Shown: in pieces, positions 124-64,000 of the stretch | Numbering within the stretch: the stretch's first letter is position 1 | Layout of the letters: each line of letters begins with the position of its first letter | Source of the DNA: an uncultured Pirellulaceae bacterium | GTDB taxonomy: Bacteria; Planctomycetota; Planctomycetia; Pirellulales; Pirellulaceae | Length of the DNA: 64,000 nt | Direction: 5' to 3' | Assembly (NCBI GenBank): GCA_938036435.1 | Contig: CALHPU010000059.1 | Coordinates: 1-64,000 of the forward strand | Translations under genes and position numbers: made by a program | The notes under the pieces: generated by a model | The model's database searches: none | The model's input: the letters and a program-made list of their open reading frames with translations, nothing else | Told to the model about the DNA's origin: nothing

Positions 124-172
124 AGTCGTTCACGGCGTTGCCCAGGGGGAGGGTGGCATGCTCCGTTGCGAT

Positions 173-344
173 TTTTGAAGTTTTACTAATGAGAGCCCGG
201 TGCACGAGCGACTGGATATTTTGGAGGATTTGCGGATTCCTCGCTGGCGCGTCGGGCTTGTATTGCAACGCTTCGCAATTTCAGATTTACGTGAGTTTTG
301 TCAAATAGAATGTGAAATTTGCTCTTAAATGGGCAACTTCAAAA
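173..344 (+). repeat. 172-bp TIR-bordered dispersed repeat, copy A
   Basis: First of three copies of an intergenic element (others at 11937-12108 and, inverted, 61530-61700). It starts TTTTGAAGTTTTAC and ends GGGCAACTTCAAAA, so its ends are imperfect inverted repeats; copy B has a perfect 14-bp pair. The left half contains a long internal inverted repeat (AGCCCG ... CGGGCT), and the right half carries the conserved block AATAGAATGTGAAATTTGCT. The string TGCGAT occurs immediately left (167-172) and two bases right (347-352) of the copy, a possible target-site duplication. There is no reading frame inside, so it resembles a non-autonomous MITE. Confidence 0.8.
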
Positions 345-382
345 AATGCGATTTGGAGGCAGCGCAGTTGGATCTACTCGCG

Positions 383-515
383 CTGCATACCAAAACTCGC
401 GCTGCAGGCCAGCACTCGTTCTGCAGGCCAGCACTCGTTCTGCAAGTTAGCACTCGTTCTGCAAGTTAGCACTTGAGTCGCAAATTTGCATTCACGTTGC
501 AAGTTGGTACTCGGC
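383..515. repeat. Seven tandem 19-bp repeats
   Basis: Seven consecutive 19-bp units begin at 383, 402, 421, 440, 459, 478 and 497. Units 2 and 3 are identical (CTGCAGGCCAGCACTCGTT). Unit 4 differs in three or four positions (CTGCAAGTTAGCACTCGTT), and the outer units are more diverged, a usual pattern for an ageing tandem array. The period is not a multiple of three and there is no open frame, so it is non-coding. It lies between repeat copy A and the 3' end of the response-regulator gene. Confidence 0.85.
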
Positions 516-611
516 CAAGAGCGGCCAAGCTACCGCAGAATGTATTGAGTTATCAAAACGGCAAACCCAAAAACGATTTTGCACCAACGACTCGTTGGTT
601 TTGCCAGAAGA

Positions 612-1118
612 CTAATTTGCGAAACTGCTCGTGTTGATCGGCGATGGATAGACGACCGAATCAAATGGTGCGTGAGGAGCGGCCAGTGACTGAGCCTCGT
701 GTTGTTTTTCGATGTGGCTGTTGACCAAGTGTGGCATCCACAATGACCGGTCGGCAATCTCTAATAGTAACTCGATGTCTAACGGCTTTTTTACGTGGTA
801 AGAGCCGGTAGAATCATAGCGGCGGAGGATGACGTCCGGTGTCTGGTGGCTGGACATGAACATCGCGGCTACCTCGGCACATTCGGCAATTGAGCGGATC
901 GCCGACATGATCTCCAGTCCCGTATGCTGATCGACAAGGCAGTCGCAGATGACAAGATCGATGGTCTTTTCGGCGTTGGCTGCCATCCAGATCGCCCCGG
1001 CGATATCTTCGGCCGTTGAGATATTGTATCCATGGGTGGTCAGCGCCGTTGCCGCGATCGCGCGCGTTTGGTGGTCTGCATCAACGATAAGCACTGATGG
1101 TGTCAGCTTCGATGACAT
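612..1118 (-). CDS. Single-domain response regulator (receiver domain)
   Basis: The protein has 168 residues from ATG at 1118; a TTG 45 bases upstream would only add an unstructured leader. It shows the receiver fold: an N-terminal VLIVDAD acidic pocket, the phosphoacceptor Asp in LVICDCLV, a Ser switch residue in MFMSS and the conserved Lys in HVKKPLD. No DNA-binding or enzymatic output domain follows. The last 40 or so residues are polar and look disordered. It is therefore a CheY/Spo0F-like phosphorelay protein or a diverged receiver. No histidine kinase is adjacent, so the partner is unknown. The family call is firm and the pathway unknown. Confidence 0.85.
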   Translation of the reverse strand: MSSKLTPSVLIVDADHQTRAIAATALTTHGYNISTAEDIAGAIWMAANAEKTIDLVICDCLVDQHTGLEIMSAIRSIAECAEVAAMFMSSHQTPDVILRRYDSTGSYHVKKPLDIELLLEIADRSLWMPHLVNSHIEKQHEAQSLAAPHAPFDSVVYPSPINTSSFAN

Positions 1119-1698
1119 GATATTACGCCTTGGACAAAGCTGCCAAATCCATTCGGCAGACAACGTGAACCAGTTCCTAACTGGCTTTTGACCGATCAGA
1201 GGGCACTTCCCGATGACGAATCAATCAGTTGAAGTTGGTCGACCGGAGACCGAGAGCCTCTATGGAGTATCGGTTTAGAGGTGACCGAAATTTGCCCTTG
1301 ATAGCATGCAAGCGGCTATTGGTTAATTTGTTCGATCGGCTGAAGCGGTTGTGTCAAATATTCCGTGATCCTCAAGGTTGACCGCATCAGCCAACATCGC
1401 TCAACCATTGGCGATTAACTTTTCGGCACAACGCAAACCGCTAGCGACTTTGTTGGCTTGATCAGCCAATTCACTTGACTTTGGCGAAGAAACACGACGA
1501 TACACGGGAAAGCTGTTCGGCAAAGCGATTGCACTTTGTCCCACAGTTGCAAGAGTTAGCTCGACGTGTTCATCGCGTTAAACAACCGAGTGATTTCTTC
1601 ATTGCAAAATTAGTGGTCGGTTTGATAGCCGACAGGCTTGTCACATCAGCCAAGGCTTGATGCAGCAGCATATATATCCAACTCACTGGGAGAAGAAA
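1119..1698. other. 580-bp gap upstream of the Gly/Cys-rich gene
   Basis: Divergent intergenic space between the response regulator and the secreted protein gene. Short open frames here are overlapping and lack homology-like features. Promoters for both genes must lie here, but I see no box pair good enough to call. A strong ribosome binding site (GGGAGAAG) ends the gap just before the ATG at 1699. Confidence 0.6.
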
Positions 1699-2463
1699 AT
1701 GAAGTTCAAAATGATTGCTGCGATTGTTGCAGTTGTTGCTGTCGCTGGGTTTTCCAGCGTTCAGGCTCAAGACTGTGGTTGCGGCGGATACGGCGCTTAC
1801 TCCGGAGTCGTCGAGGGTGGTTGCGGTGGCTATGGTTCCTTCGGGGAAGTCGGCTACGGGCCTTCAAATTGTTATCGCGGAATCAGTTCAGCAGGCGCGG
1901 CATCGCTATGGTCCGGATACTGCACAGAAGATTGCTCTTACAAAGGCCCAACTCGCAATGGCCTTTTAAGTCGTTGTAAGCTTCGCCACGGTGGTGGCGG
2001 ATGCGGACTTGGCGGCGGATGTGGAATCGGCGGTGGCGTCGGCGGCGGATGCTTTGGTTACCCGGGCGGCGGATGCGGGTGCGGAACTCCATCTTGCGGC
2101 GGCGGTTGCTCAACGCCATCTTGTGCCAGTGCAGTACGAGGAGGCCATTTCGGCGGAGGCGGATGTGGCCTTAAGCAGAAATTGTCTGCCAAGCGTGGCT
2201 GCGGTTTGCGCGGCGGATGTCTTTCTGGCGGTTGCGGTGGCGGCGGCAAGTTGTTGGGGCGATGCAAATCTCGCCACCAACCTTCTTCATGTGGCTGTGA
2301 TGCCCCTGTTAGCGAGTGCTCTTCATGCCTGAGCGGTGCTTGCGATGGCTGTGGAGACTGCGGTGGATACTTCGACGCAGCGGTTGGTTACGATTACGGT
2401 AACGCCGGTATGCAAAGCTACGTCGGCGGAAGTCTGACTAGCGCTTGCGGTTGTGGTGGCTAG
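1699..2463 (+). CDS. Secreted Gly/Cys-rich structural-type protein
   Basis: The 254-residue protein starts at ATG 1699, preceded by GGGAGAAG; upstream in-frame starts would only add a tail before the signal peptide. MKFKMIAAIVAVVAVAGFSS followed by VQAQ is a clear Sec signal peptide with cleavage after AQA. The mature chain is dominated by Gly and Cys in short runs (CGCGG, GGGCG, GGCGG), with basic patches (LLSRCKLRH, LLGRCKSRH) repeated about 120 residues apart, and it ends SACGCGG. Planctomycete envelopes are known to be rich in Cys proteins, so a cross-linked wall or matrix role is an inference. An intrinsic terminator follows 46 bases after the stop, so it is a single-gene transcript. The same CGCGG motif recurs in the secreted protein at 27565. 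Confidence 0.8.
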   Translation: MKFKMIAAIVAVVAVAGFSSVQAQDCGCGGYGAYSGVVEGGCGGYGSFGEVGYGPSNCYRGISSAGAASLWSGYCTEDCSYKGPTRNGLLSRCKLRHGGGGCGLGGGCGIGGGVGGGCFGYPGGGCGCGTPSCGGGCSTPSCASAVRGGHFGGGGCGLKQKLSAKRGCGLRGGCLSGGCGGGGKLLGRCKSRHQPSSCGCDAPVSECSSCLSGACDGCGDCGGYFDAAVGYDYGNAGMQSYVGGSLTSACGCGG

Positions 2464-2508
2464 GCTCAGTCGGGACGCCCCAAGATGCGTAATGAGTGAA
2501 ACATGCGA

Positions 2509-2537
2509 AGCCCGCGTCATTGAGACGCGGGCTTTTT
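2509..2537 (+). terminator. Intrinsic terminator of the Gly/Cys-rich gene
   Basis: A perfect 10-bp GC-rich stem (AGCCCGCGTC / GACGCGGGCT) with a 5-base loop is followed by a short T run. It lies 45 bases after the stop at 2463. Confidence 0.9.
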
Positions 2538-2666
2538 GCTTAGATTGACACGGAGTTTCTGTATCCGAAGTCGCAACACTTTGGATCGCCTGAGAGCAAG
2601 TTTTCCAATCTCCGGCGAGATCGGATAGCAGAGGCGGCCGGTGATCGTTGAGTACACGGTAACGCG

Positions 2667-3359
2667 TTAACGATGGTGCTGCATGCGCGACATTTTTACA
2701 TGAGCTTGAGCTTCAACGAGGATCTTAGCAATTCGCTCTTGCACCAATGCTGATAAATCTGCATCGCTGAGCGACTCGTATTGTTCGTAGGGAATCGGGT
2801 CACCAAAGACAACTTGGATATTTCCCAATCGGGGAAATTTCGCTTGGCGAGGATAGACCTGCCATGCACCGTCCAATGCAATCGGCAACAGAGGAGATTT
2901 TGTTCTCCGGGCCAGCGTGCAAAAGCCTCCTTTGATTGGTTGCAATCTTCCATCGGGGCTTCGTGAACCTTCGGGGAAGATGAGAACCCTCTCCTTCTTT
3001 TTCAACCGCTTAAGTGTTTCCTTGATGCCACCGATCGCATTGGAATCCCGTTGAATGGGAATACAGTCATTCCAACGAAGAAACCAGCCCAGCGGCAGAA
3101 ACTCAAACAGCGATTGTTTCGCCAGATAGTTGATGGGTTTGGGGCTGATCGCGCCAACAATCATTGGGTCGATGTTGCTTTGGTGATTGGCCAATAGTAT
3201 CAACGGGCCATCGGCGGGGAAGTTTTCCAAACGGTGAACACGCACTCGCCAAAGAATCAGAAACGGTATCCGAAAACACCAACGCACAAAACCTTGGCTA
3301 AAATCAATGACGGGCCCACGTCGGGAAGAGTTCGGCGTGTTTGAGCTTGGACGGGACAT
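2667..3359 (-). CDS. plsC: 1-acyl-sn-glycerol-3-phosphate acyltransferase
   Basis: It would transfer an acyl group to lysophosphatidate in phospholipid synthesis at the inner membrane. From ATG 3359 it has 230 residues, the normal size for the family. The acyltransferase HX4D motif is NHQSNID (His59, Asp64), and motif III is FPEGSRS (Glu130). A hydrophobic stretch at about residues 24-38 (FVRWCFRIPFLILW) would anchor it to the membrane. The frame stays open upstream to 3548, but that part reads as low-quality sequence, so I choose 3359; no strong ribosome site decides this. It is divergent from the formyltransferase gene. The family call is firm and the exact acyl substrate unknown. Confidence 0.88.
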   Translation of the reverse strand: MSRPSSNTPNSSRRGPVIDFSQGFVRWCFRIPFLILWRVRVHRLENFPADGPLILLANHQSNIDPMIVGAISPKPINYLAKQSLFEFLPLGWFLRWNDCIPIQRDSNAIGGIKETLKRLKKKERVLIFPEGSRSPDGRLQPIKGGFCTLARRTKSPLLPIALDGAWQVYPRQAKFPRLGNIQVVFGDPIPYEQYESLSDADLSALVQERIAKILVEAQAHVKMSRMQHHR

Positions 3360-3571
3360 TGATTTCAGTAGGGCAGGGGATGTTTTATGGGCCGAAGCAA
3401 CCGAGCCGCAGAGGGCACTGGCAGACCGATAGCAATTTGAGACAATAGGATTCAGCTGAGGTTGAGAGATTGAAGTCCAACGGGTGTGCGTTTTGTCGGA
3501 AAGTGGACCCATTCTACCAGCGGCACCTCGAGGGTCCAACGAGATCACTACTATAGTCGGACGGGCGCATT

Positions 3572-4633
3572 TTGAATATCAAAGATACGATCATCGAAGA
3601 CACTTTTGCCGAAGGGTTTTCCATGCGATTCACTCGCATGATCGTAACCGCCGCGACAGCGCGTTGGGTAGACGCGGCAGTCAGCGCTTTTACAGGCTAT
3701 GGCACGTCGGTGATTCAGTGCGATGCCGAAGTCGGTTTGGAGCGTTTGCTGGATCCCTCGGAAACATTCGACGGCAGGCCCGGTGCGGCGATGTTGGCGT
3801 TCGGTTTTTCTACTGAAGTTTTAGCGAAAGCCATCGCAAAACGTTCCGGTCAGTGCTTGATGACGTGTGCGACGACTGCGGTTTTCGATGGTTACCCTCA
3901 GCAGCAGTTCATCGAGGACCAGCAGCGGTTGTTGGCACAGCAGAAGGAAATCGACGACCAAAAAAGTTCGGAGGTTGTCGCGGCGAAAGATTCAGAGACG
4001 ATTCCAACGGAGGACGCGCTGCATAGTGCTGCTGCTTCGGTGCAAAAGATCGTACCTCAGAAGAGAATACCTGTCGGCAGCCACTTGCGGTTTTTTGGCG
4101 ATGGGTATCAGAAAAGCAAAATGCTAGGTGATCGCAGGTTTTGGCGGATTCCGGTGATGGATGGAGAGTTTATTGTTGAGCAAGACGTGGGCGTTGGCAA
4201 AGGTGTTGCGGGCGGGAATTTTCTGATCCAGTCGGTTGATCAAATGGCTGGACTGGAGGCTGCCGAGCGCGCCGTCGATGCGATCGCGGGGCTGAGTAAA
4301 GTAATCACACCGTTTCCTGGTGGTGTTGTCCGTAGCGGCAGCAAAGTAGGTTCGCGTTACAAGGGCATGGTCGCTAGTACGTCTCACTCGTATTGTCCCA
4401 CGTTGCGTGGCCGCGTTGCGTCTCAGATTCACCCCAATGCCTCTTGTGTTTATGAGATTGTGATCGACGGAACCGATTTTGAGTCGGTAGCGGAGGCGAT
4501 TCGCGTGGGGGTATATGCCGCTGTTGGCGAGGGAATTGTTGCTGTTGGGGCGGGAAACTACGGCGGTAAATTGGGAAAGCACCAGTTCCACCTGCATCAG
4601 ATTTTGGAAGAAGATGCAGAACAAACGGGTTAG
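3572..4633 (+). CDS. fhcD: Formylmethanofuran:tetrahydromethanopterin formyltransferase (Ftr/FhcD)
   Basis: It transfers the formyl group between H4MPT and methanofuran (or analogues) in the archaeal-type C1 pathway, which some planctomycetes and methylotrophic proteobacteria carry. Family blocks seen are IEDTFAEGFSMR at the N-terminus, TGYGTSVI, PGAAMLAFGFST, GQCLMTCATTAVFDG, RFFGDGYQ, RRFWRIPVMDGEFIVE, GVAGGNFL, PFPGGVVRSGSKVGSRYK and GNYGGKLGKHQFHLHQ. The start is TTG 3572, because the conserved IEDTFAE block lies before the first internal ATG. It has 353 residues against about 300 usual. The excess is a Gln/Glu/Lys-rich insert of roughly 50 residues between VFDGYP and SHLRFFGDGYQ. No other H4MPT/methanofuran gene is in the window. 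Confidence 0.93.
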   Translation: MNIKDTIIEDTFAEGFSMRFTRMIVTAATARWVDAAVSAFTGYGTSVIQCDAEVGLERLLDPSETFDGRPGAAMLAFGFSTEVLAKAIAKRSGQCLMTCATTAVFDGYPQQQFIEDQQRLLAQQKEIDDQKSSEVVAAKDSETIPTEDALHSAAASVQKIVPQKRIPVGSHLRFFGDGYQKSKMLGDRRFWRIPVMDGEFIVEQDVGVGKGVAGGNFLIQSVDQMAGLEAAERAVDAIAGLSKVITPFPGGVVRSGSKVGSRYKGMVASTSHSYCPTLRGRVASQIHPNASCVYEIVIDGTDFESVAEAIRVGVYAAVGEGIVAVGAGNYGGKLGKHQFHLHQILEEDAEQTG

Positions 4634-4948
4634 TCACGTTGGGTTGGCGACTAAATCGGCAATGATTTTTCGGGAATGAGTCCGGATATCGTGGGCCGTG
4701 TGGTTTCTGGGGTGGACCTCAAAAGCGGTATATTAGGCCCTCTTTGAGACGATTCACGTTACAAGCCACAGAAACGTAAGTTTTTACTGCTACTTTGCTT
4801 GCGGGCGATTAATATTATGTTGGAAATTCCAATTGAAATTGACCGTCTGGTCCTCAGCAAAAATCATGGGGGCAGACTTAGCAAAGGTGCGATAAACTGG
4901 TTAAGACCACCTGTTCATCTACCTATGACATACCGGAGATAAAATCGA
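4634..4948. other. 315-bp leader region of the DUF1598 gene
   Basis: Non-coding. TTGACC at 4839-4844 followed at 17 bases by AATCAT is a weak sigma-70-like candidate. A GGAG ribosome site precedes the ATG at 4949. No repeat was recognised. Confidence 0.4.
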
Positions 4949-6328
4949 ATGCTCGGGCGAATCCCATTTTTGGCAGCTCTAATGTTCCTAGCGGCCGTAG
5001 CTCTGTCGACTCAACCTATCCATGCGCAGAACGGCGGAGACGATGACCTTTCTGATGCCGCCGGTGGTGTAAGAATCGATGCGGAAGGTTTTTTGACAGC
5101 TCGCGCCAAAGTTGACCCAAGCGGTGAGCTAACGATGCGTCGGTTCAAAGAAGCCAAAGCCAATGTCGATCAAGAACTGCAGAAGCCAAGTAAGCTCCGG
5201 AAGGTGTCTCTTATTCGACTTGAGAAGCAAGTGAGAGAATTGCTGGACGCCGGCAAACCGATTCCAGACGACATGCAGTATCTTGCCGGACTGACGCGTA
5301 TCACTCACGTGTTCTACTATCCCGAAAATAAGGATATCGTTATCGCGGGTCCTGCTGAAGGTTACTTCCGGGCCGGTAATGATCACGTTGTTGGCATGAG
5401 CACTGGCCGCGCTGTTTTGCAACTTCAAGATTTGATTGTTGCTCTGCGGGCTTTCAATCCAGAAAACAAGACGCGCGTCATTTCAGTATCGATCGATCCT
5501 ACTGAGCAAGGTCTGCGAAATTTGAATAATGCCAAACGACGCACCGGAGCGGTCAACGCCAACCAAGCGATGGACGTCGCTCGGTTCTACCGAGATGCAC
5601 TTGGTTATCAGGAAATCACCATCAAGGGTGTTTCACCGAAAACGCACTTCGCACAGGTCCTTGCCGAAGCGGACTATAACATGAAGTTGATCGGCATTGG
5701 CCTTGAGCGACCACAGGTTGGCATCACTAGCTTCATTGAGGAAGCGACAACACGTTCTGCGGCAACGATGCAGCGTTGGTTCTTCCAGCCCAACTACAAT
5801 TCGGTCACTGTGGCTGAGGATTCGATGGCGATGGAATTGACTGGCTCAGGCGTGCAATTGCTTGGCGAGAATGAGACTGTATCCAAACAAGGCAAACGTA
5901 CGAGAACTGGGAAGCTGAACAAAGCCAGCCAGAAATTTACCGCTTCGTTCACTAAGGCTTACGACAAACTGGCCGAAGTGAGCCCGATTTATGGCGAGTT
6001 GAGGAACCTGATGGATTTGTCAATCGCGGCGGCCTTTATTCAGAAAATGGGACTTTACGAGAAGGCTGATTGGTCGATGGATTCTTTCGGCGATGAGTCA
6101 ATTGTTTCGGTCGAGCGCTTCCGGGCACCACAGAAAGTGGACGCCGTGTTGAACGCGGTCTGGCGCGGCAGTTCATTGTTGCCTGCGATAGCTGGTGGAG
6201 TCACCATTCAACCGCGCGTTAGTCTGAACTCCGATCGGGTGACGATTGACACCGAGGGCAAAATCAACGGAGTTAAATCTTCGATTGAGTTTGACAATTT
6301 AGCGGACGGCCAATGGTGGTGGGATTAA
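4949..6328 (+). CDS. Secreted planctomycete DUF1598 protein
   Basis: The 459-residue protein has a Sec signal peptide (PFLAALMFLAAVALS, cleavage near IHAQ). The central block, with YLAGLTRITHVFYYP and DIVIAGPAEGY, is the signature I associate with DUF1598, a domain found almost only in planctomycetes and of unknown function. It is followed by SVSIDPTEQGL and by GIGLERPQVGI, also typical of the family. The C-terminal region (VSPIYGELRNLMDLSIAAAFI) is helical. No catalytic motif is recognisable. The GGAG ribosome site and the terminator right after the stop indicate a single-gene unit. The family call is confident and the function unknown. Confidence 0.85.
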   Translation: MLGRIPFLAALMFLAAVALSTQPIHAQNGGDDDLSDAAGGVRIDAEGFLTARAKVDPSGELTMRRFKEAKANVDQELQKPSKLRKVSLIRLEKQVRELLDAGKPIPDDMQYLAGLTRITHVFYYPENKDIVIAGPAEGYFRAGNDHVVGMSTGRAVLQLQDLIVALRAFNPENKTRVISVSIDPTEQGLRNLNNAKRRTGAVNANQAMDVARFYRDALGYQEITIKGVSPKTHFAQVLAEADYNMKLIGIGLERPQVGITSFIEEATTRSAATMQRWFFQPNYNSVTVAEDSMAMELTGSGVQLLGENETVSKQGKRTRTGKLNKASQKFTASFTKAYDKLAEVSPIYGELRNLMDLSIAAAFIQKMGLYEKADWSMDSFGDESIVSVERFRAPQKVDAVLNAVWRGSSLLPAIAGGVTIQPRVSLNSDRVTIDTEGKINGVKSSIEFDNLADGQWWWD

Positions 6329-6354
6329 TTGGCTCACTAGTGTGAAAAGTAATC

Positions 6355-6383
6355 AAGGGCGGCTGAGAGGCTGCCCTTTTTTT
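6355..6383 (+). terminator. Intrinsic terminator of the DUF1598 gene
   Basis: The 9-bp stem AAGGGCGGC / GCTGCCCTT (one G-U pair) has a 6-base loop and runs into seven T residues, 27 bases after the stop. Confidence 0.9.
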
Positions 6384-6525
6384 GGTTCGTCCGAGGACTT
6401 GCTGGTTCAAGATCGCCCAAGCGATTGCCGCTTTAAATGAATCCCACTATAACGCTTGGCCACCCGGAAGGAGCTTTCTTTCTGAAAAGGGCTCTTCCCG
6501 GATTTAAATGGCTGCCTTGGAAATC

Positions 6526-6646
6526 GTAGTGGGATTCGCCAGAATTCCAACCGGCTCTTCTTAAAGGAATTCTGGCGAATCCCACTACATCCATTTGAAA
6601 TGGCTTATTCAACAAGAACTTCGTGCCACTAAGTTCTGGGAAGAAC
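6526..6646. repeat. GATTCGCCAGAATTC palindrome family, copy 1
   Basis: A perfect 23-bp inverted repeat (6526-6548 against 6566-6588, core GGGATTCGCCAGAATTCC) has a 17-base loop. It is followed by about 60 bases, to 6646, that are nearly identical to those at copy 2 (12357-12474). The conserved unit is therefore larger than the hairpin. A half-stem fragment (GAATCCCACTAT) lies upstream near 6440. TTCTGAAAAGGGCTCTT occurs both upstream (about 6480) and downstream (about 6649). The rest of the 6384-6823 gap holds no gene. The hairpin has no T run and is not a classic terminator. Confidence 0.88.
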
Positions 6647-6823
6647 CTTCTGAAAAGGGCTCTTTGAATGGGCAATTGATTTGGTTGGATTTCATTGGCC
6701 CAGTTATGCGATATAATCTCAAAGCGGCGTGAAATTCTTTTTGCGTTGGCTGGTAAGTCCTTCAACTATTCAAATCACAGATTTCCCATCGATACGCGCG
6801 TGTCATTTCGCTCCACGATCAGA

Positions 6824-7849
6824 ATGTCGGCCTACCCCGGTTACGGGTTTCAGTTGCCTGACGGGCGTTGGAGCGTAGGGGTTTCGGGGGTGGCTTGGAA
6901 GTCGCCGGTTGTGCTTAATCGACGTCAGAAAATGTTGATCAATATGCTCGGCGGAGTCATGCAGGCCACCGAGCAGGAGATGGCCAGCGAGTTGTTTCGC
7001 GCACGCGTGACACCGTTTATGACGAAGTGTAAACCTCGGCCGCGCATCTTGGTCAACGTTGGGACTCATCAATTCGAATTTGAAAAAAGAGCCAAACGCT
7101 CTGGTAGATTCGAGCAAAGGTTTTTACTTGATGACGACCAAGTCCAATCGTTGCCGGGGGCTGAAACTGGCACAATTGAATATAGTATCTCCGTTGCAGG
7201 CGACAAATTTTCGATAGGAGAGAAGAACGAATTGTCTGCGTCGGGACATATCTGCCTTATTCCGAGAACTGGAATCAGCATCGTCTCGGATATCGATGAC
7301 ACTATCAAACACACTTGCGTTGGCAACCGCCATGAGTTGCTGCACAACACGTTTGTTCGTGAGTTTCGTTCGGTGCCTGAGATGGCTGAGGTCTATCAGC
7401 ACTGGGCAGCGTTGGGAAGTAGTTTCCACTACGTGTCAGCGAGCCCGTGGCAGATGTTTGAATCGCTTAACCAGTGGCGGATGCATGAGCAGTTTCCCAT
7501 GGGGACGGTGCACCTGCGGAATTTTCGGCTGCGCGATCAGTTGTTAAAGAAGGTGATTCTGCATCGCAAGGGGAAACGGTCGGCGATTCAAAAGCTGATC
7601 CGTACCTTGCCGCGTCGAAGGTATATTTTGATTGGTGATTCCGGTGAAAAGGATCCGGAGATCTACCGTAAAATTTCTCGGAAGTTCCCTAGTAACATTG
7701 TGGGTTTGTTTATCCGCGAGCTTCCAGAGCATCCGATTGCCCCAGAACGTTGGCAGAAGATCTGTGACGATGTCCCTGGCGCTATTTGCGAACGTTTTAC
7801 CGCCGGTAAAGAGTTGCAAGAAAAAGTGGCTTGCCTGTTTGAATCTTGA
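6824..7849 (+). CDS. App1-type phosphatidate phosphatase (DUF2183)
   Basis: This HAD-like enzyme family dephosphorylates phosphatidic acid to diacylglycerol in characterised members. The catalytic motif DxDxT/V appears as SDIDDTIK (Asp156, Asp158). Downstream are the family blocks FHYVSASPWQ and LIGDSGEKDPEIY. The N-terminal third (YPGYGF, GRWSVGVSGVAWK) is the beta-rich App1 segment. The length from ATG 6824 is 341 residues. The frame is open back to TTG 6695, and a strand just upstream (RVSFRSTIRM) could belong to the fold, so the true start may be earlier; no ribosome site decides it. It precedes the acyltransferase/ligase gene, which fits a lipid-turnover role. Confidence 0.82.
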   Translation: MSAYPGYGFQLPDGRWSVGVSGVAWKSPVVLNRRQKMLINMLGGVMQATEQEMASELFRARVTPFMTKCKPRPRILVNVGTHQFEFEKRAKRSGRFEQRFLLDDDQVQSLPGAETGTIEYSISVAGDKFSIGEKNELSASGHICLIPRTGISIVSDIDDTIKHTCVGNRHELLHNTFVREFRSVPEMAEVYQHWAALGSSFHYVSASPWQMFESLNQWRMHEQFPMGTVHLRNFRLRDQLLKKVILHRKGKRSAIQKLIRTLPRRRYILIGDSGEKDPEIYRKISRKFPSNIVGLFIRELPEHPIAPERWQKICDDVPGAICERFTAGKELQEKVACLFES

Positions 7850-7997
7850 AACGGGGCCGACATTGTTGTCCGCAAACGCTATGCTATGTGAGTCCAATGA
7901 TAGGCGATTCGATATCATTGGCGCTTTATCACTTCCTTCTGTCGATTGATCGCACCGACTGATCGGGCAGGTTGAAAACTCACTCAGGACTGCTCCC

Positions 7998-10900
7998 TTG
8001 GCTTCCATTGCTACCGATTCACAGGAACAAAAACGTTCGGGCATCTGGACCCCCAGCTTTCAAAGTCTTCTTTGGACCAATTGGCTTACAGCGATAAACG
8101 ACAATGCGTTTCGATGGTTCGTCATCGGTGCCGGGAAAACGTATGTGACGCCCGGCAATGAAGGGCAGATTTTGATGCTGGGAACGATCCTGTTTGTTGT
8201 TCCCTATTTGTTACTGGCGGCTCCAGCGGGGTGGCTGGCCGATCGATACAGTAAGCGCAATGTCATCGTATCCTGCAAGGTGCTCGAGATTGTCGTGATG
8301 GTGATCGGCATCTGCTCGCTGTTGCTGGGCAGTTTGCAATTGCTGATGGTGACCGTGTTTTTGATGGGAGCCCAGAGCGCGTTGTTCTCTCCGGCCAAGA
8401 TTGGAACGATCCCGGAGCTGTTGGACGAATCAGAAATTTCTACCGGCAACGGCATCTTCAACCTCGCGACGCTCTCAGCGGTAATCATAGGTATGGGCAT
8501 CGGCGGATGGCTGGCCGATATGGCGGGCGATCGAGGCCAATCCAATATATGGCTCACAGGTGCGACGCTGATCGGTATCGCGGTTGCGGGCACCGTGATC
8601 AGTTTCGCGATTCGCTCGCAGGGGGCGGCCAAGCCTGACGCAAAATTTCCCACGAACCTTCCCGCGCGTACCTTCGCGGATCTTTATAGCCTGTTCTCGA
8701 TGGGGCGCCTTTTTCGTGTCGCGCTTGGTAGCCTATTTTTCTATGCCATCGCCAGTTTTGCTCAATTGAACATTGATACGTTCGCCGCCGAAAGTGGCAG
8801 CATCAACGAGACAGAGAAACTCCCGCTGTTAATTTCACTGGTTATGGGACTTGGCTTTGGCAGTTTGCTGGCTGGAATTATTTCCGGCGGCAAGATTGAG
8901 CTGGGATTGGTTCCTTGGGGTGCATTGGGAATGTGCATTTTCGGTTTGCTGTTGTTTTTTGTGCCTGCGGACTTCATCGGTGAGTCTATCGGGCTGAATT
9001 TTGTACTGGCCTGCGCTCTGCTGGCGGGGCTGGGGATTAGCGCGGGATTCTTTGATGTTCCATTGGCGTCATATTTGCAACACAACAGCCCACCCGATAG
9101 ACGTGGTGCCGTTCTATCGGCGTCAAATTTTATGACGTTTACTGGCATCGCCCTGATGGCAGTGTTGTACGCAGCGCTGACATTTGGAAACAACGCCGGT
9201 TCATTAAGCAAACTTTCGTCTGGTCTGTATCGCCCGTCGGTTTCCGCCGCTGAGGGTGCTTTGATTCAGGAGAAGGTGGGTCAGTACAGAGTGGCTGTAG
9301 CCGAAGAACTGTCGGGGGCAGACAAATCGGCCGGAGGTAAAATTAAAGTCAAAGCCGACGGTTTTCTGCAGGCGTTGCCGGAATCACTTCATAGTACTGC
9401 ATTTTCAAAAATGATCAGTAGCGAGATCGAATTGCGTAAAGAGGCCAATCTTCAAACGTCGATGGCCAACTTTAACAGCACCGATCGATTTTCTAGCTCT
9501 CAACAGCGACACATTCGAAAGATCCTTCAGCAATCGGGTAAGCTGCCGTTGTTTAGCTCCCGCAGCGTGTTTTTGATCATGGGACTTATGACCATCCCGG
9601 TTGTTCTTTATTCCATCTACCGGCTCTCGCGGGAGATGGTCAGGATGGCTTGGTTGGTGATGTTGCGTGTTGTTTATAAGATACGGATCACTGGTTTAGA
9701 AAATGTGCCAAAATCAGGTGCCGCAGTATTGGTCCCCAATCACTCGTCTTGGCTCGACGCGGTGATCTTTCGTGTCTTTCCACCGCGTCCGGTTCGAATT
9801 ATTGCTTGGGCCGGTAATTTCAAAAGTGGCGTGATGAAGAAGTGGGCCGATTTTTGCGGCGTCATTCTGATGGCTGGCGGCCCGAAATCGATACGCAACG
9901 CGTTCAAAGTCGCGCGCGAGGCACTGGACGAGGGGGAAATGCTGGGGGTGTTTGCCGAAGGAGGTATCTCGCGGTCGAACCAAGTCCGCAGCTTCAAACC
10001 GGGACTGTTGAAGATACTTGACGACCGGAAAGTGCCCATCGTCCCAGTGTATTTTGACGAATTGTGGGGTAGTATTTTTAGCTACTCCGAAGGCAAAGCG
10101 TTCACGAAATTCCCTCGAACGTTTCGTCGCCCCGTGTCCATCCATTTTGGCAAACCGGTCCAGCCGCATCCGGAAACGATGCATGAGATTCAAAAATCCG
10201 TCCAAAGATTGAGCGCCATAGCCGTGAACAATTACGCAAGTGAAATCACTCCACCGATTATTGAATTTGTTTACTCTTGTAAGCGGCAGAAGAAGAAATC
10301 AAAGATCGCGGATTCTTTGGGGTCCGAAGAGACCGGAGGGATGTTGCTGACTCGCGCGCTGGTCTTGCGACGTCTGCTCCGCCGTGAGGTTTTCTCGTCG
10401 GAGGAAACGAACGTCGGCATATTGATCCCGCCCACCGTCGGAGGTGCGATTGTCAATCTAACGCTGGGCCTCGATAAAAAAGTTGCCGTCAACCTGAATT
10501 ATTCTTTATCCGAAGATCTAATCAATCACTGCATCAAAGAAGCGGGAATCAAACACGTGCTGACCACGCGGAAGGTCGCCGAAAAACTAAAGTTTAATCT
10601 CGACGCAGAAGTGGTCTTCTTGGACGATCTCAAGGAGAAGGTCACCACGGCAGACAAGGCGGTCTCGTGGTTCGAGGCCTTTGTCATGCCGGGTTCCCTT
10701 TTGGTTCGGAAGCTTGGGTTGCTAACGCTTACGCCTGATGATGTGATGACGATTGTGTTCACGTCAGGCTCAACGGGCGTTCCCAAAGGCGTCATGCTGA
10801 GCCATCAGAATGTTTATTTTGATGTTCGCGGTTTCGAGAAGGCAGCTGGTTTCAGGAACAATGCCGATACTATCGTTGGGGTGTTGCCGTTCTTTCATTC

Positions 10901-11846
10901 ATTCGGCTATACCATTACGCTTTGGGCACCGATGATGTGCGATATACGCGGCGTGTATCATTTGAATCCGCTGGACGCGAAACAGATTGGCAAACTGACC
11001 AAGCGTTATGAAGGCACGATCTTGATGGCGACGCCGACGTTTTTGAGGAGCTACATGCGACGTTGTACGCCGGAGCAATTTGCTACGCTGGACGCCGTGG
11101 TGACTGGTGCCGAAAGACTGCCTCCAGAATTGGCGACTCAGTACGAGGAGAAATTTGGTGTGATGCCCGTTGAGGGCTATGGCGTAACGGAATTGTCTCC
11201 TGCCGTGGCGGCTAATATTCCCGCCTCCCGACAGACGGGGAAGTTTCAGGTGGATGCGAAGCCGGGTACCGTTGGGCGGCCGATCGCCAATGTGGCTGCG
11301 AAGGTGTGTGATCTGGATTCGGGAGAGGAACTGCCACCGAACGAATCCGGAATGCTATGGGTTACAGGGCCGATCGTGATGAAAGGCTACTTGAACAATC
11401 CCGAAGCCACCAAAGAAGTGATCGTCGACGGTTGGTATAAGACAGGTGACGTGGCGTTGATCGACGAAGACGGTTTCATCAAGATCACCGGCCGGATAAG
11501 CCGGTTTTCGAAGATTGGCGGCGAAATGGTGCCGCACTTGAAAATTGAAGAGTTGCTTTCGGAATATCTTGATACCACTCCAAATGATGATGAAGACGAC
11601 CACTTGGCTGTCGCCGTCACAGCGGTGCCCTGCAATAAAAAAGGTGAGCGATTGATTGTGCTCTATACGCGGAACCACAAAACGGTGGATGAGATGACGA
11701 GCGTTCTCAAGGCCGCCGGTTTGCCGAACGTGTTTATTCCTTCGGCTGACAGTTACTTTCGTGTCGATGCGTTGCCGATTCTTGGTACGGGGAAAATCGA
11801 TCTGAAGGGAATTAAGGACAAAGCGTTAGAGCTCGCGTGCGATTGA
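7998..11846 (+). CDS. aas: Trifunctional MFS / PlsC acyltransferase / AMP-dependent ligase (Aas type)
   Basis: The 1282-residue fusion is likely to flip, reacylate and activate acyl chains for lysophospholipid recycling. Residues 1 to about 410 form an LplT-like MFS transporter with about a dozen hydrophobic helices (start TNWLTAINDNAFRWF). A membrane segment near 525 leads into the acyltransferase, with NHSSWLD (His582, Asp587) and FAEGG (Glu654). About 770-1282 is an adenylate-forming ligase with TSGSTGVPKG (from Thr922), YGVTELSP and KTGDVALIDEDGF. The start is TTG 7998, because the first helix is needed and no ATG precedes it; CAGGA lies 10 bases upstream. E. coli Aas holds only the last two domains and LplT the first, so the triple fusion unites the whole pathway. 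Confidence 0.93.
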   Translation: MASIATDSQEQKRSGIWTPSFQSLLWTNWLTAINDNAFRWFVIGAGKTYVTPGNEGQILMLGTILFVVPYLLLAAPAGWLADRYSKRNVIVSCKVLEIVVMVIGICSLLLGSLQLLMVTVFLMGAQSALFSPAKIGTIPELLDESEISTGNGIFNLATLSAVIIGMGIGGWLADMAGDRGQSNIWLTGATLIGIAVAGTVISFAIRSQGAAKPDAKFPTNLPARTFADLYSLFSMGRLFRVALGSLFFYAIASFAQLNIDTFAAESGSINETEKLPLLISLVMGLGFGSLLAGIISGGKIELGLVPWGALGMCIFGLLLFFVPADFIGESIGLNFVLACALLAGLGISAGFFDVPLASYLQHNSPPDRRGAVLSASNFMTFTGIALMAVLYAALTFGNNAGSLSKLSSGLYRPSVSAAEGALIQEKVGQYRVAVAEELSGADKSAGGKIKVKADGFLQALPESLHSTAFSKMISSEIELRKEANLQTSMANFNSTDRFSSSQQRHIRKILQQSGKLPLFSSRSVFLIMGLMTIPVVLYSIYRLSREMVRMAWLVMLRVVYKIRITGLENVPKSGAAVLVPNHSSWLDAVIFRVFPPRPVRIIAWAGNFKSGVMKKWADFCGVILMAGGPKSIRNAFKVAREALDEGEMLGVFAEGGISRSNQVRSFKPGLLKILDDRKVPIVPVYFDELWGSIFSYSEGKAFTKFPRTFRRPVSIHFGKPVQPHPETMHEIQKSVQRLSAIAVNNYASEITPPIIEFVYSCKRQKKKSKIADSLGSEETGGMLLTRALVLRRLLRREVFSSEETNVGILIPPTVGGAIVNLTLGLDKKVAVNLNYSLSEDLINHCIKEAGIKHVLTTRKVAEKLKFNLDAEVVFLDDLKEKVTTADKAVSWFEAFVMPGSLLVRKLGLLTLTPDDVMTIVFTSGSTGVPKGVMLSHQNVYFDVRGFEKAAGFRNNADTIVGVLPFFHSFGYTITLWAPMMCDIRGVYHLNPLDAKQIGKLTKRYEGTILMATPTFLRSYMRRCTPEQFATLDAVVTGAERLPPELATQYEEKFGVMPVEGYGVTELSPAVAANIPASRQTGKFQVDAKPGTVGRPIANVAAKVCDLDSGEELPPNESGMLWVTGPIVMKGYLNNPEATKEVIVDGWYKTGDVALIDEDGFIKITGRISRFSKIGGEMVPHLKIEELLSEYLDTTPNDDEDDHLAVAVTAVPCNKKGERLIVLYTRNHKTVDEMTSVLKAAGLPNVFIPSADSYFRVDALPILGTGKIDLKGIKDKALELACD

Positions 11847-11936
11847 CCGGTGCTCCCCATGTGGCGGCGCGCGAGGCGGAATACACCAAACTTAATGTAC
11901 TAACCTTATGCACTTGTTTAACGCCTGAGGCCTAGG

Positions 11937-12108
11937 TTTTGAAGTTGCACTAACACAAGCCCGATGCGCAAGCGAGCGGATATTTCCGAGGATTTTTGAA
12001 GTCCTCGCTTACGTGTCGGGCTTGTATTGAAACCCTTCGCGATTTCAAATTTACGTGCGTTTTGTCGAATAGAATGTGAAATTTGCTTTCAAATGTGCAA
12101 CTTCAAAA
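11937..12108 (+). repeat. 172-bp TIR-bordered dispersed repeat, copy B
   Basis: The best-preserved copy. It has perfect 14-bp terminal inverted repeats, TTTTGAAGTTGCAC at 11937-11950 and GTGCAACTTCAAAA at 12095-12108. Its length is exactly that of copy A. Just inside the left end, ACAAGCCCGA pairs with TCGGGCTTGT across about 60 bases, extended by AAGCGAG / CTCGCTT, so the left half can fold into a long hairpin. The right half holds the conserved AGAATGTGAAATTTGCT. It contains no reading frame, and I see no clear target duplication. The unique sequence on either side (11847-11936 and 12109-12356) holds no gene. Confidence 0.9.
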
Positions 12109-61369: not shown

Positions 61370-61529
61370 TCCATCAGCTGCAGAAATGGTCTCCGCTGCA
61401 TGCGCTTAAGACTTGGCATGCTTAGTTCAACAAGATCATGAATTCACGTTCATGCAGAAGTTCATCGTTCATCTGCTTTTTGAGCAGCTAATGAGCGGCT
61501 AAATCTTCTGCGTTGCCTTAGGCCAGTGT

Positions 61530-61700
61530 TTTGATGTCGCACATTTGGGAGCAAATTTCACATTCTATTCGACAAAACGCTCGTTAATCTGAAATCGCGG
61601 AGTGCTCCAATACGAGCTCGACGCGCCAGCGAGGAATCCGGAAATCCGCAAAAATATCCGCTCGCTCGCGCTTCGGGCTTGTATTTGTGCAAGTTCAAAA
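61530..61700 (-). repeat. 172-bp TIR-bordered dispersed repeat, copy C (inverted)
   Basis: Inverted copy of the element at 173-344 and 11937-12108. The left end TTTTGATGTCGCAC and the right end GTGCAAGTTCAAAA are imperfect inverted repeats. The block AGCAAATTTC...ATTCTATTCGACAAAACGC is the complement of the conserved right half of copies A and B, and GAGCTCGAC / GCGCGAGC pairs reproduce the internal hairpin. Just outside, at 61701-61740, CGCGCGTGTCGGTCTTGTATTTGTG partly repeats the last 35 bases, a tandem fragment. It lies between the WD40 gene's 5' side and the 3' end of transketolase. Confidence 0.85.
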
Positions 61701-61744
61701 CGCGCGTGTCGGTCTTGTATTTGTGCAGCTTGTAGAGGCCGGTG

Positions 61745-63784
61745 TTAGCCCTTCACAGCCGCGACGATTGCTTTTTCCGTGATACCGAAGTGCTCGTAAA
61801 GCTCTTCGAATGGAGCAGATCCACCAAACGAACTCATACCGATAAACTTGCCGCCGCTGCCAAGGTATTTCTCCCATCCCATTTTTATACCGGCTTCGAC
61901 CGCAACACGATTGGTGACCGAAGAGGGCAAGACAGATTCTCGATACTCTTCGGACTGATCGTCAAACAGCTTCCAACATGGAACACTCACAACGCGCGTT
62001 TTCACGCCTTGCTCTTCCAGTTGCTTGGCCGCTTCAACGCAAAGGACAACTTCGCTGCCGGTGCCCATGACAATCGCGTCTGGAGTTCCGTCGGTGTCTT
62101 TGAGAATGTAAGCACCCTTGAGCACGCCGTCGGCAGATCCGTAAACCGAGCGGTCGAACGTCGGCATGTTCTGGCGTGAAAGCACAATCACTGTTGGACG
62201 AGCCTTATCTTCCAATGCCGCTTGGTAGCATTTAGAGACTTCATTCGCGTCGCCGGGACGCATTACCAACACCCCCGGAATCGAACGACATGCAGCCATG
62301 TGCTCGACCGGTTGGTGGGTTGGACCGTCTTCGCCAAGCCCAATCGAATCGTGGGTCATGATGTAGAACACCGGCTGATGCATGATACTACTCAATCGCA
62401 GGCTTGGACGCAGATAATCGGTGAACACAAAAAACGTTGCACCATAAGCGCGGATGCCTGAAAGAGACATGCCGTTGCAGATCGCTGCCATCACGTGTTC
62501 GCGAATTCCGAAATGGAAATTCTTCCCTGAGTAGTCATCGGCACCGAAATGACCGGCAGCAGGATCATCGTTGTTAGATTTGTTAGACCCAGCGAGATCA
62601 GCCGATCCGCCAATGAACCAAGGAATCGCTTTGCAGACTTCTTGCAGGACCTTTCCAGAGCTGGCACGAGTGGCCATTCCTTTTTCATCAGCGTCAAATA
62701 CAGGCAGGGCGTCTTGCCAACCGGCCGGCAATGTATCGGTTTGAATGCCTTCGAGTTCCGCAGCTTCTTTAGCGAACTCTTTTTTGTAGGCTTCAAATTT
62801 CTCGCTCCATGAGGCGTACGCTGATTCGCCACGGGCACCAAGGTTACTGCGGAAGTCTTCGTAGACTTCGCCGGGCACGTGGAACTTTTCCGCGGTCCAA
62901 CCGTAGTTCTCTTTGGCCAGTTTGATTTCATCTTCCCCAAGAGGCGATCCATGAGCCCCCGAGGTGTCTTGCTTGTTAGGAGCACCGAAACCAATGATAC
63001 TTTTGACGATGATCAGCGTCGGACGATCATCTGTCGCTTGGAATTTCTTGTAGGCGGCCGATAGAGCGGCCAAATCGTTGGCGTCGGTTACGGTGATCAC
63101 CTGCCAACCGAGTGCTTCAAAACGCCCGGCGACGTCTTCGCTGAATGCTAGTTCAGTGCGACCTTCGATTGTGATTTCGTTATCGTCGTAGATCCAGCAA
63201 AGATTCGAAAGCTTCAGATGTCCGGCCAGCGATGCCGCTTCACAGCCAATCCCTTCCATCACATCACCATCGCTGCAGACGACATAGGTGTCGAAGTCAA
63301 ACAATTCGTAGCCCGGCCGATTATAAGTCGCCCCCAGCCATTTGGCAGCAATCGCAGTACCGACGCTGTTGCCCAACCCCTGCCCCAAAGGTCCGGTCGT
63401 CGTTTCGATGCCGGCGGCGTAACCGTATTCAGGATGCCCTGCACAGGGGCTGTGCATTTGGCGAAAATTTTTGATGTCGTCGATCGTAATCGACTTTCCT
63501 TGAGTCAGATTGCCAGCTTTGTCGGTTTTGGCAACTTCAGCGAGGTGCAGCACCGAGTAAAGCAACATCGATGCGTGGCCGCAGGAGAGGATGAAACGAT
63601 CGCGGCCCATCCAGTTGGGTTGAGCCGGATTATAGTTCATGTGGTGGTTCCACAGTTGGTACGTCAGCGGCGCGAGAGCCATCGGAGTGCCCGGGTGGCC
63701 ACTATTGGCTGCTTGGACGGCGTCCATTGATAGCGTGCGGATGGTATTGACGGCAGCTTGTTGAGTGTCGAGGGTTGTTGACAT
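61745..63784 (-). CDS. tkt: Transketolase
   Basis: TPP-dependent transfer of two-carbon units between sugar phosphates in the pentose phosphate pathway. It has 679 residues from ATG 63784, chosen because AAGGAAAA lies about 8 bases upstream; the frame extends to 63853 without need. Conserved features are NSGHPGTPMALAP (His30), SCGHASML, GDVMEGIGCEAASLAGH (TPP/Mg site), YDDNEITIEG, IIGFGAPNKQDTSGAHG, GGSADLAGSN, GIREHVMAAICNG and DSIGLGEDGPTHQPVE. The stop at 61745 is 45 bases from repeat copy C. No other pathway gene is adjacent. The assignment is certain at the family level. Confidence 0.97.
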   Translation of the reverse strand: MSTTLDTQQAAVNTIRTLSMDAVQAANSGHPGTPMALAPLTYQLWNHHMNYNPAQPNWMGRDRFILSCGHASMLLYSVLHLAEVAKTDKAGNLTQGKSITIDDIKNFRQMHSPCAGHPEYGYAAGIETTTGPLGQGLGNSVGTAIAAKWLGATYNRPGYELFDFDTYVVCSDGDVMEGIGCEAASLAGHLKLSNLCWIYDDNEITIEGRTELAFSEDVAGRFEALGWQVITVTDANDLAALSAAYKKFQATDDRPTLIIVKSIIGFGAPNKQDTSGAHGSPLGEDEIKLAKENYGWTAEKFHVPGEVYEDFRSNLGARGESAYASWSEKFEAYKKEFAKEAAELEGIQTDTLPAGWQDALPVFDADEKGMATRASSGKVLQEVCKAIPWFIGGSADLAGSNKSNNDDPAAGHFGADDYSGKNFHFGIREHVMAAICNGMSLSGIRAYGATFFVFTDYLRPSLRLSSIMHQPVFYIMTHDSIGLGEDGPTHQPVEHMAACRSIPGVLVMRPGDANEVSKCYQAALEDKARPTVIVLSRQNMPTFDRSVYGSADGVLKGAYILKDTDGTPDAIVMGTGSEVVLCVEAAKQLEEQGVKTRVVSVPCWKLFDDQSEEYRESVLPSSVTNRVAVEAGIKMGWEKYLGSGGKFIGMSSFGGSAPFEELYEHFGITEKAIVAAVKG

Positions 63785-64000
63785 AATTCGGTTTTCCTTT
63801 ATCAGTATTTTTAGCTCGGAGACGTTCTGAGACCGAGCTTCATCATTTGGCAAAAGTCGCTGGAGGTTACCGTGTAGAGCTCGAAGCTCAAACGCAGGTG
63901 ACGTCCGCGCGATTGGCGTCTGTTTAGATTCAGTCCTTTTTTGACGAATTTATCGTGACAGGATAGACTATTAAACGGTCGATTTCCATGGGGCTGTGTT

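Follow-up and report, generated by a model that had tools for sequence, protein, structure and literature searches.

MITEs, REPINs with their RAYTs and REP-targeting insertion sequences are known, but separately (PMC1525189, PMC3733652 and PMC6006769, as far as the accessible text of each goes). The spread of REPs is not well understood and is usually put down to RAYTs. RUP, NEMIS, Bcr1, ERIC, YPAL, Nezha and EFAR are MITEs of bacterial insertion sequences according to the accessible part of PMC3733652. The element described here, which occurs three times in the window (the whole 64-kb stretch of DNA that was analysed), shares with the bacterial MITEs of that source a size within 70-300 bp, the lack of coding capacity, terminal inverted repeats (TIRs), multiple copies and the potential for mobilisation by TIR-recognising transposases. 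Its TIRs measure 14 bp against the 15-30 bp given there, and, unlike those MITEs, it has an interior formed by a REP pair that varies by species and it is found inserted mostly in REPs.

In the accessible text of PMC1525189, ISPsy8, ISPa11, ISPpu9/10, ISRm22 and ISRm19 target REPs, and, as in the present element, there is one fixed insertion point in the REP; the direct repeats, where stated in that text, are 3, none, 2 and 6 bp, compared with 8 bp here, and no REP-carrying MITE is described in it. Among REP/RAYT systems, the class 3 TnpA-Y1 of Planctomycetes has the foot CnGA, and class 3 systems resemble the present element in the inverted REP pair and in having a RAYT-like gene between copies of the same REP (PMC6006769, accessible text). 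The nearest report, within the accessible text of PMC3733652, is that of P. putida TIRs in which degenerate GTAG-1 REPs are joined to other stem-loops; in these and in the TIRtrons/TIRYTs, REP units are joined to inverted repeats in hundreds of copies, as here. Those TIRs flank tyrosine transposase genes, whereas the ends in our case correspond to those of an insertion sequence of the DDE type that duplicates its target. We found neither a MITE with a REPIN interior nor one end pair around several REP families described in the literature searched, to which subscription journals contributed little. A second, unrelated transposition system seems to carry REP pairs and also to aim at REPs; if this is true, two small-repeat families belong to one system, which offers a testable way for REPs to disperse and for intergenic repeat clusters to build up.

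Three copies of the repeat in the window

The first-pass annotation had reported a 172-bp repeat with bordering inverted repeats at three positions. All three copies were confirmed, each exactly 172 bp long; the coordinates of copies A and B stood as given, and the start of copy C moved from 61530 to 61529. The features are as follows.

165..172, + strand: left 8-bp repeat of copy A, probable target duplication, GTTGCGAT; 6/8 identical to 345-352
173..344, + strand: putative MITE copy A, 172 bp; TIR 173-186, REPIN 188-267, right segment 268-330, TIR 331-344
345..352, + strand: right 8-bp repeat of copy A, probable target duplication, AATGCGAT
11937..12108, + strand: putative MITE copy B, 172 bp; TIR 11937-11950, REPIN 11952-12031, right segment 12032-12094, TIR 12095-12108
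61529..61700, - strand: putative MITE copy C, 172 bp; left TIR 61687-61700, REPIN 61606-61685, right segment 61543-61605, right TIR 61529-61542
61701..61736, - strand: decayed first 36 bp of an apparent older copy; 78% identity with element positions 1-36 over a 36-nt flank, broken off at position 36

Copies A and C were 83% and 84% identical to copy B, respectively (blastn). The perfect 14-bp end pair claimed for copy B is present, and in B only; copy A ends in TTTTGAAGTTTTAC on the left and GGGCAACTTCAAAA on the right, and copy C in TTTTGAACTTGCAC and GTGCGACATCAAAA. The internal inverted repeat and the fixed block AGAATGTGAAATTTGCT were likewise found in 3/3 window copies, and the TGCGAT seen on both sides of copy A proved to be the last six bases of the 8-bp flanking repeat. 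The flanks of copy B match at 5/8 positions, and so do those of copy C, which has no clear target duplication. Copy C looks as if it was inserted in the REP arm of an older copy (locus L028), of which nothing beyond these 36 bp was seen. Five REP-arm matches (≤ 3 mismatches) occur in the window, all of them within copies A, B and C. Beside copy B lies a gene (7998-11846) whose 1282-aa product combines an MFS, an acyltransferase and an AMP-binding domain; beside copy C lies a transketolase gene (61745-63853), with its stop codon 44 bp from the copy.

Copy number, ends and age in the source genome

The source genome (G000) is a 4.57-Mb draft of 176 contigs and 89.75% completeness, and the genomes compared with it are mostly drafts too. 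The repeat occurs in G000 far beyond chance. Copy B had at least 53 matches by blastn, a lower bound because 40 of 133 candidates were scored, and the 14-bp end (≤ 1 mismatch) was present at 160 sites, compared with 4 for a reversed-pattern control. The lengths of 62 elements from G000 ranged from 107 to 280 bp, with 39 at exactly 172 bp; variation in length and loss of the 14-bp ends had been named beforehand as signs against a mobile unit, and of these the first was seen in part (23/62 elements differ from 172 bp) while the ends were kept. A reading frame had been said to be lacking, and indeed no closed frame above 46 aa was present in 39/39 full-length copies; open stretches of 48-57 codons cross these copies in varying frames. 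The repeat is short, apparently without coding capacity, multi-copy and bordered by conserved terminal inverted repeats, as a MITE should be.

In the 39 full-length (172-bp) copies, which had been selected through their ends, the TIRs had the highest mean column conservation (96%), followed by the REP arms (92-93%), the spacer (91%) and the right segment (84%). Pairwise identity had a median of 82.6% and reached 95.9% in the best pair; with this degree of conservation, the G000 copies look old.

Several copies depart from the common layout. A minimal 107-bp copy (L137:1001-1107, G000:C121) has the REPIN and both ends but no right segment. In another (L133:1003-1238, G000:C93) the spacer is expanded to about nine tandem CCGGATTC-like units, and copies at L127, L153 and L159 bear extra REP arms in tandem.

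The first-pass annotation had offered a structured intergenic RNA as the other way to read this layout. Such a reading, in which a conserved regulatory RNA or terminator-like intergenic element is kept in many copies for its function, would fit the very stable fold of copy B (z -7.2 vs shuffles) and the absence of any frame ≥ 150 aa over the three window copies, but we hold it to be most unlikely. No Rfam match was found in the window at the gathering threshold, and over the 39 copies the covariation of the stem pairs (outer stem plus REPIN) was 0.059, no higher than the 0.061 of shuffled alignments, with 385/500 shuffles reaching the score; there is thus no sign of selection on the hairpin beyond its palindromic ancestor. 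Furthermore, interiors are unlike between species, and copies are nested in one another at fixed sites, as set out below.

An 8-bp duplication at the ends

To return to the MITE reading, the flanks were compared in 131 elements, which came from sequence stretches of four genomes in the genus: 62 from G000, 56 from G015, 9 from G003 and 4 from G011, the last three being represented by those stretches and not by their whole genomes. Elements were included when both ends had ≤ 3 mismatches, the length was 85-420 bp and ≥ 12 bp of flank was available, and all others were left out. The n bases to the left were then compared with the n bases to the right, with randomly paired flanks as control. Direct identity at n = 8 was 0.684 compared with 0.452 in shuffled pairs (z 12.3); the only other raised value was at n = 9 (0.156 vs 0.132, z 2.9), and z lay between -3.3 and 0.4 for n = 4 to 7 and 10 to 12. 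When the test was repeated with the 77 elements that have distinct flanks, from which two L011 entries of a tandem array shortened by the pairing rule were left out, identity at n = 8 was 0.638 vs 0.414 (z 10.3), with nothing at n = 7 or 9.

At least 6 of the 8 bases matched in 78/131 elements, and all 8 in 29/131. By genome, the ≥ 6/8 class comprised 27/62 elements in G000 (shuffled mean 8.3), 42/56 in G015 (shuffled mean 18.4), 7/9 in G003 and 2/4 in G011; a clear duplication is missing in 35/62 G000 elements. We read the 8-bp flank repeat as a target duplication that is worn in many G000 copies.

Some copies have inverted flanks, in the order left arm, element, right arm, which suggested insertion into an extruded hairpin stem. 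This class was not above shuffled pairings (7/62 vs a mean of 8.5 in G000 and 4/56 vs 16.5 in G015), and hairpin-stem insertion was therefore dropped. Recombination between copies in the two arms may account for inverted flanks.

Insertion into REP palindromes and nesting of copies

With the duplication counted once, the pre-insertion consensus was CCTCG-CTTACGCG-TCGGG in G015 (42 sites), CCCTCG-CTnACGCG-TCGGG in G003 (7 sites) and CTCG-CTTGCGCn-TCGGG in G000 (27 sites), which corresponds in sequence to an arm of a REP-like palindrome. At least one flank lay in a REP-like arm at that very point (≤ 3 mismatches) in 116/131 elements, and both flanks did in 88/131. The REP patterns for this count were written after the flanks had been seen, and the same patterns scored only 142 (one flank) and 11 (both flanks) of 15,152 random control positions in the same loci, away from the ends. 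By genome, a REP-like flank was present in 48/62 elements of G000, 55/56 of G015, 9/9 of G003 and 4/4 of G011, and was missing in 14/62 elements of G000.

A flank resembling another window-type copy was found in 28/131 elements. In 26 of these 28 nested cases, the break in the outer copy falls at positions 29/36 or 72/79 of the element, which are the two REP-arm sites; the two exceptions, L011 and L029, break elsewhere. Both flanks are kept with 8 bases doubled at L013, L023, L118 and L145, as well as around a T3-type element in L210, so that an uninterrupted copy serves as the empty site. Judged by these junctions, the element inserts mostly into REP palindromes, the REPs of its own copies included.

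A complete insertion sequence that shares the target and, nearly, the ends

A full-length insertion sequence with the same ends had been proposed as a check, and a complete one was found in another genus, with an end that is one base off. It lies at L326:123-1627 (genome G384, genus g43), is 1,505 bp long and has one 474-aa frame. Its TIRs are identical at 25/25 positions and start with TTTTGAAGTTGCGC, which differs by one base from the MITE end, and CGCGTCAG is duplicated on both sides (8/8) within the REP GGTAACCCGACGCGTCAGCGAGG. The protein matched DDE_Tnp_1 with 63 bits (cut-off 23), a domain that it shares with the IS4/IS701 families; under the curated NCBIfam cut-offs it scored 87 of 150 bits for IS701 and 59 of 115 bits for IS4, and we therefore call it IS4/IS701-like only. 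It also has the motif YSLRWQIELFFKELK, which, by a motif rule, we take to be YREK-like as in IS4/IS701.

The exact 14-mer was found with further relatives. Contigs of G303 run out 50-142 bp into a multi-copy element that bears it; eight such ends are 100% identical and 8/8 follow a REP-like arm (by eye). With this end as query, 3/240 genomes of the family matched, all from one genus. Six ends of a relative of the L326 insertion sequence in G390 also follow a REP-like arm (by eye). In G072, a genome from a different family of the same order, there is a relative, apparently truncated, that carries the exact 14-mer and a REP-like flank; identity with the N-terminus of the transposase is 58% over 92 residues. 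It speaks against the MITE reading that the exact 14-mer is borne by the G303 ends, whose body is unseen, and by the G072 relative, but not by the complete insertion sequence.

The transposase was detected in 0/28 genomes of the window's genus at E ≤ 1e-10; because the same search missed G303, where ends of the insertion sequence do occur, and matched 2/11 genomes, this negative is weak. In G000, reading by eye behind 95/95 exact 14-mer sites and 5/65 one-mismatch sites showed no transposase of an insertion sequence; five of the exact sites, in four loci (L134, L136, L152 and L156), have 25-95 bp left before the contig end, and L160 has 54 bp. Ends without a near partner in G015, where most of the 82 exact sites were fetched, showed none either (by eye). 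Viral contigs had no transposase match, solved structures had no match at E ≤ 0.1, and plasmids had two distant transposases (23-25% identity over about half of the query), one of them annotated as IS701 family.

Fixed 14-bp ends, an 8-bp duplication and a full insertion sequence of another genus, nearly identical in its ends and alike in its target, support the MITE reading of the first-pass annotation, and the repeat is therefore best read as a MITE moved in trans. That annotation had not recognised the REPIN in the inner hairpin, the REP as target or the change of interior from species to species. We consider it very probable that the element belongs to the MITEs of an IS4/IS701-like family of insertion sequences, with a REPIN as its interior.

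A REPIN interior and a RAYT-like gene

The hairpin at element positions 16-95 consists of two inverted REPs, ATACAAGCCCGAnGCGCnAGCGAG, with a spacer between them. Two inverted REPs with a short spacer are what make a REPIN, and the inner hairpin of the MITE qualifies as one. In G000, arms of this same REP (28 nt, 100% inverted) also stand on either side of a 165-aa Y1_Tnp gene at L052, and a rearranged 172-bp unit lies directly upstream of it. Its protein scored 27.7 bits for Pfam Y1_Tnp (cut-off 23) and 21.5 bits for the NCBIfam RAYT model NF047646, below the cut-off of 80, and is therefore called RAYT-like. With its motifs NHVH, FWT and YVLEAQ, which give NHVH, WT and Y----Q, and a REP arm that includes CCGA, it comes close to the class 3 TnpA-Y1 of Planctomycetes with a CnGA foot (PMC6006769, accessible text). 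Nine of its ten named relatives are from planctomycete MAGs, and the tenth is named only as bacterium, which points indirectly to a planctomycete as the source of the window.

Exact REP arms numbered 129 in G000 (control 0). Among the 100 of them that were listed, 73 lie in an element or ≤ 160 bp from its listed ends and 27 do not; this placing of REP arms in or beside a TIR-bordered element differs from the REP/RAYT systems in the accessible text of PMC6006769. Of the fetched loci among the 27, L369-L373 resemble decayed elements (by eye), and L368 and L375 look like stand-alone REPINs without 14-bp ends but with about the same outer boundary (by eye). Two REP clusters are of another form. 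Directly 3' of the RAYT-like gene (L052:1821-1955, G000:C13) there are about eight tandem 18-bp units, GACGCGCAATACAAGCCC, each a piece of a REP arm, and at L367:729-4695 (G000:C145) ten REP arms (≤ 2 mismatches) in one orientation form three clusters, mostly 40-46 bp apart inside the clusters.

If the whole 172-bp unit were a REPIN-type element moved by a RAYT alone, with the 14-bp ends merely part of its hairpin, a RAYT-like gene that has this REP on both sides and the rearranged unit directly upstream would be expected company, and so would REP arms that are better conserved than the right segment (92-93% vs 84% over 39 copies), a difference that the MITE reading alone does not require. We nevertheless regard this as very unlikely. 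The duplication is sharp at 8 bp, and DDE transposases leave sharp target duplications; in addition, the TIRs are the best conserved part (96%), unlike palindrome pairs stand behind the same ends, and REPINs also exist without these ends (L368 and L375).

Nor do we favour the view that the ends belong to the target, a dispersed 28-bp palindrome TTTTGAAGTTGCAC/GTGCAACTTCAAAA at whose centre REPINs inserted repeatedly. The REPINs begin right behind the 14-bp end, and the stand-alone REPINs share about the same boundary, as this would predict; it is nonetheless very improbable, since a full insertion sequence bears such ends and the 8-bp duplication sits outside them. An empty 28-bp palindrome, which would be the ancestral target, was found in none of the 382 sequences examined, nor was there any facing end pair ≤ 66 bp apart (≤ 2 mismatches) in them, all exact G000 14-mer sites included.

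On the MITE reading, a DDE transposase supplied in trans would recognise the TTTTGAAGTTGCAC ends and place the element, through a cut staggered by 8 bp, at a single position of a REP palindrome stem. The target would be CCTCG-CTNRCGCN-TCGGG, of which the middle 8 bases would be duplicated. Between the ends, a REPIN would have replaced nearly all of the insertion sequence, and this REPIN, as two inverted REP copies, would have a RAYT-type HUH transposase as its own mobiliser. We infer that the copies in the genome of the window owe their movement, whether excised or copied, to a transposase of this line, and that the REPINs came in as complete cassettes, through capture or through insertion.

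The same ends around different interiors in other species

The exact 14-mer was present in 9/28 genomes of the genus and numerous in four of them, with 95 sites in G000, 82 in G015, 18 in G003 and 9 in G011. In the wider order it was found in 23/296 sampled genomes, 19 of which had one or two sites; the reversed pattern also occurred as single sites in 13/296, so that single 14-mer sites prove nothing and may be chance. Several sites were read in G303, G275 and G161, which belong to the same family as the window's genome. The DNA pattern of the element was found in none of the named genomes searched, and viral contigs had no match to the window-type left end.

Quite different inverted palindrome pairs lie between these ends in G015 and G003, again at the same REP target, in elements mostly 230-262 bp long, and further interior kinds stand behind these ends in G303 and G161. 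The interior labels came from loose motifs: G003 elements labelled T2 or T3 are one G003 type by eye, and G015 elements labelled T1 at L194 and L217 are T4-like. A T3-like palindrome flanks a RAYT-like gene in G015 (L256, 52-nt arms, 92%) and a T4-like palindrome flanks one in G000 (L048, 54-nt arms, 80%), while the T2-labelled elements matched only the T3-like REP at L256. No RAYT-like gene flanked by the G003-type palindrome was present among the 19 Y1_Tnp loci compared, a set that most Y1_Tnp loci of G015 and G003 fall outside. The remaining interior kinds are called REPs by their shape alone.

As a tentative extension, the ends may form a modular REPIN shuttle, in which the same 14-bp ends took up at least five kinds of palindrome pair across several genera and REPs are spread both by RAYTs and by a DDE transposase. 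Window-type copies would then bring their own landing site with them, giving self-nesting arrays that spare genes. This is quite possible, but we would not yet rely on it.

A second end type was seen in G015 at L192, L210, L227, L236 and L247. It reads TTTTGATGTTGCGC or is one base off, stands beside REP-like arms, and borders window-type interiors and, at L192, a TTTCGCTCCGCGAAA palindrome.
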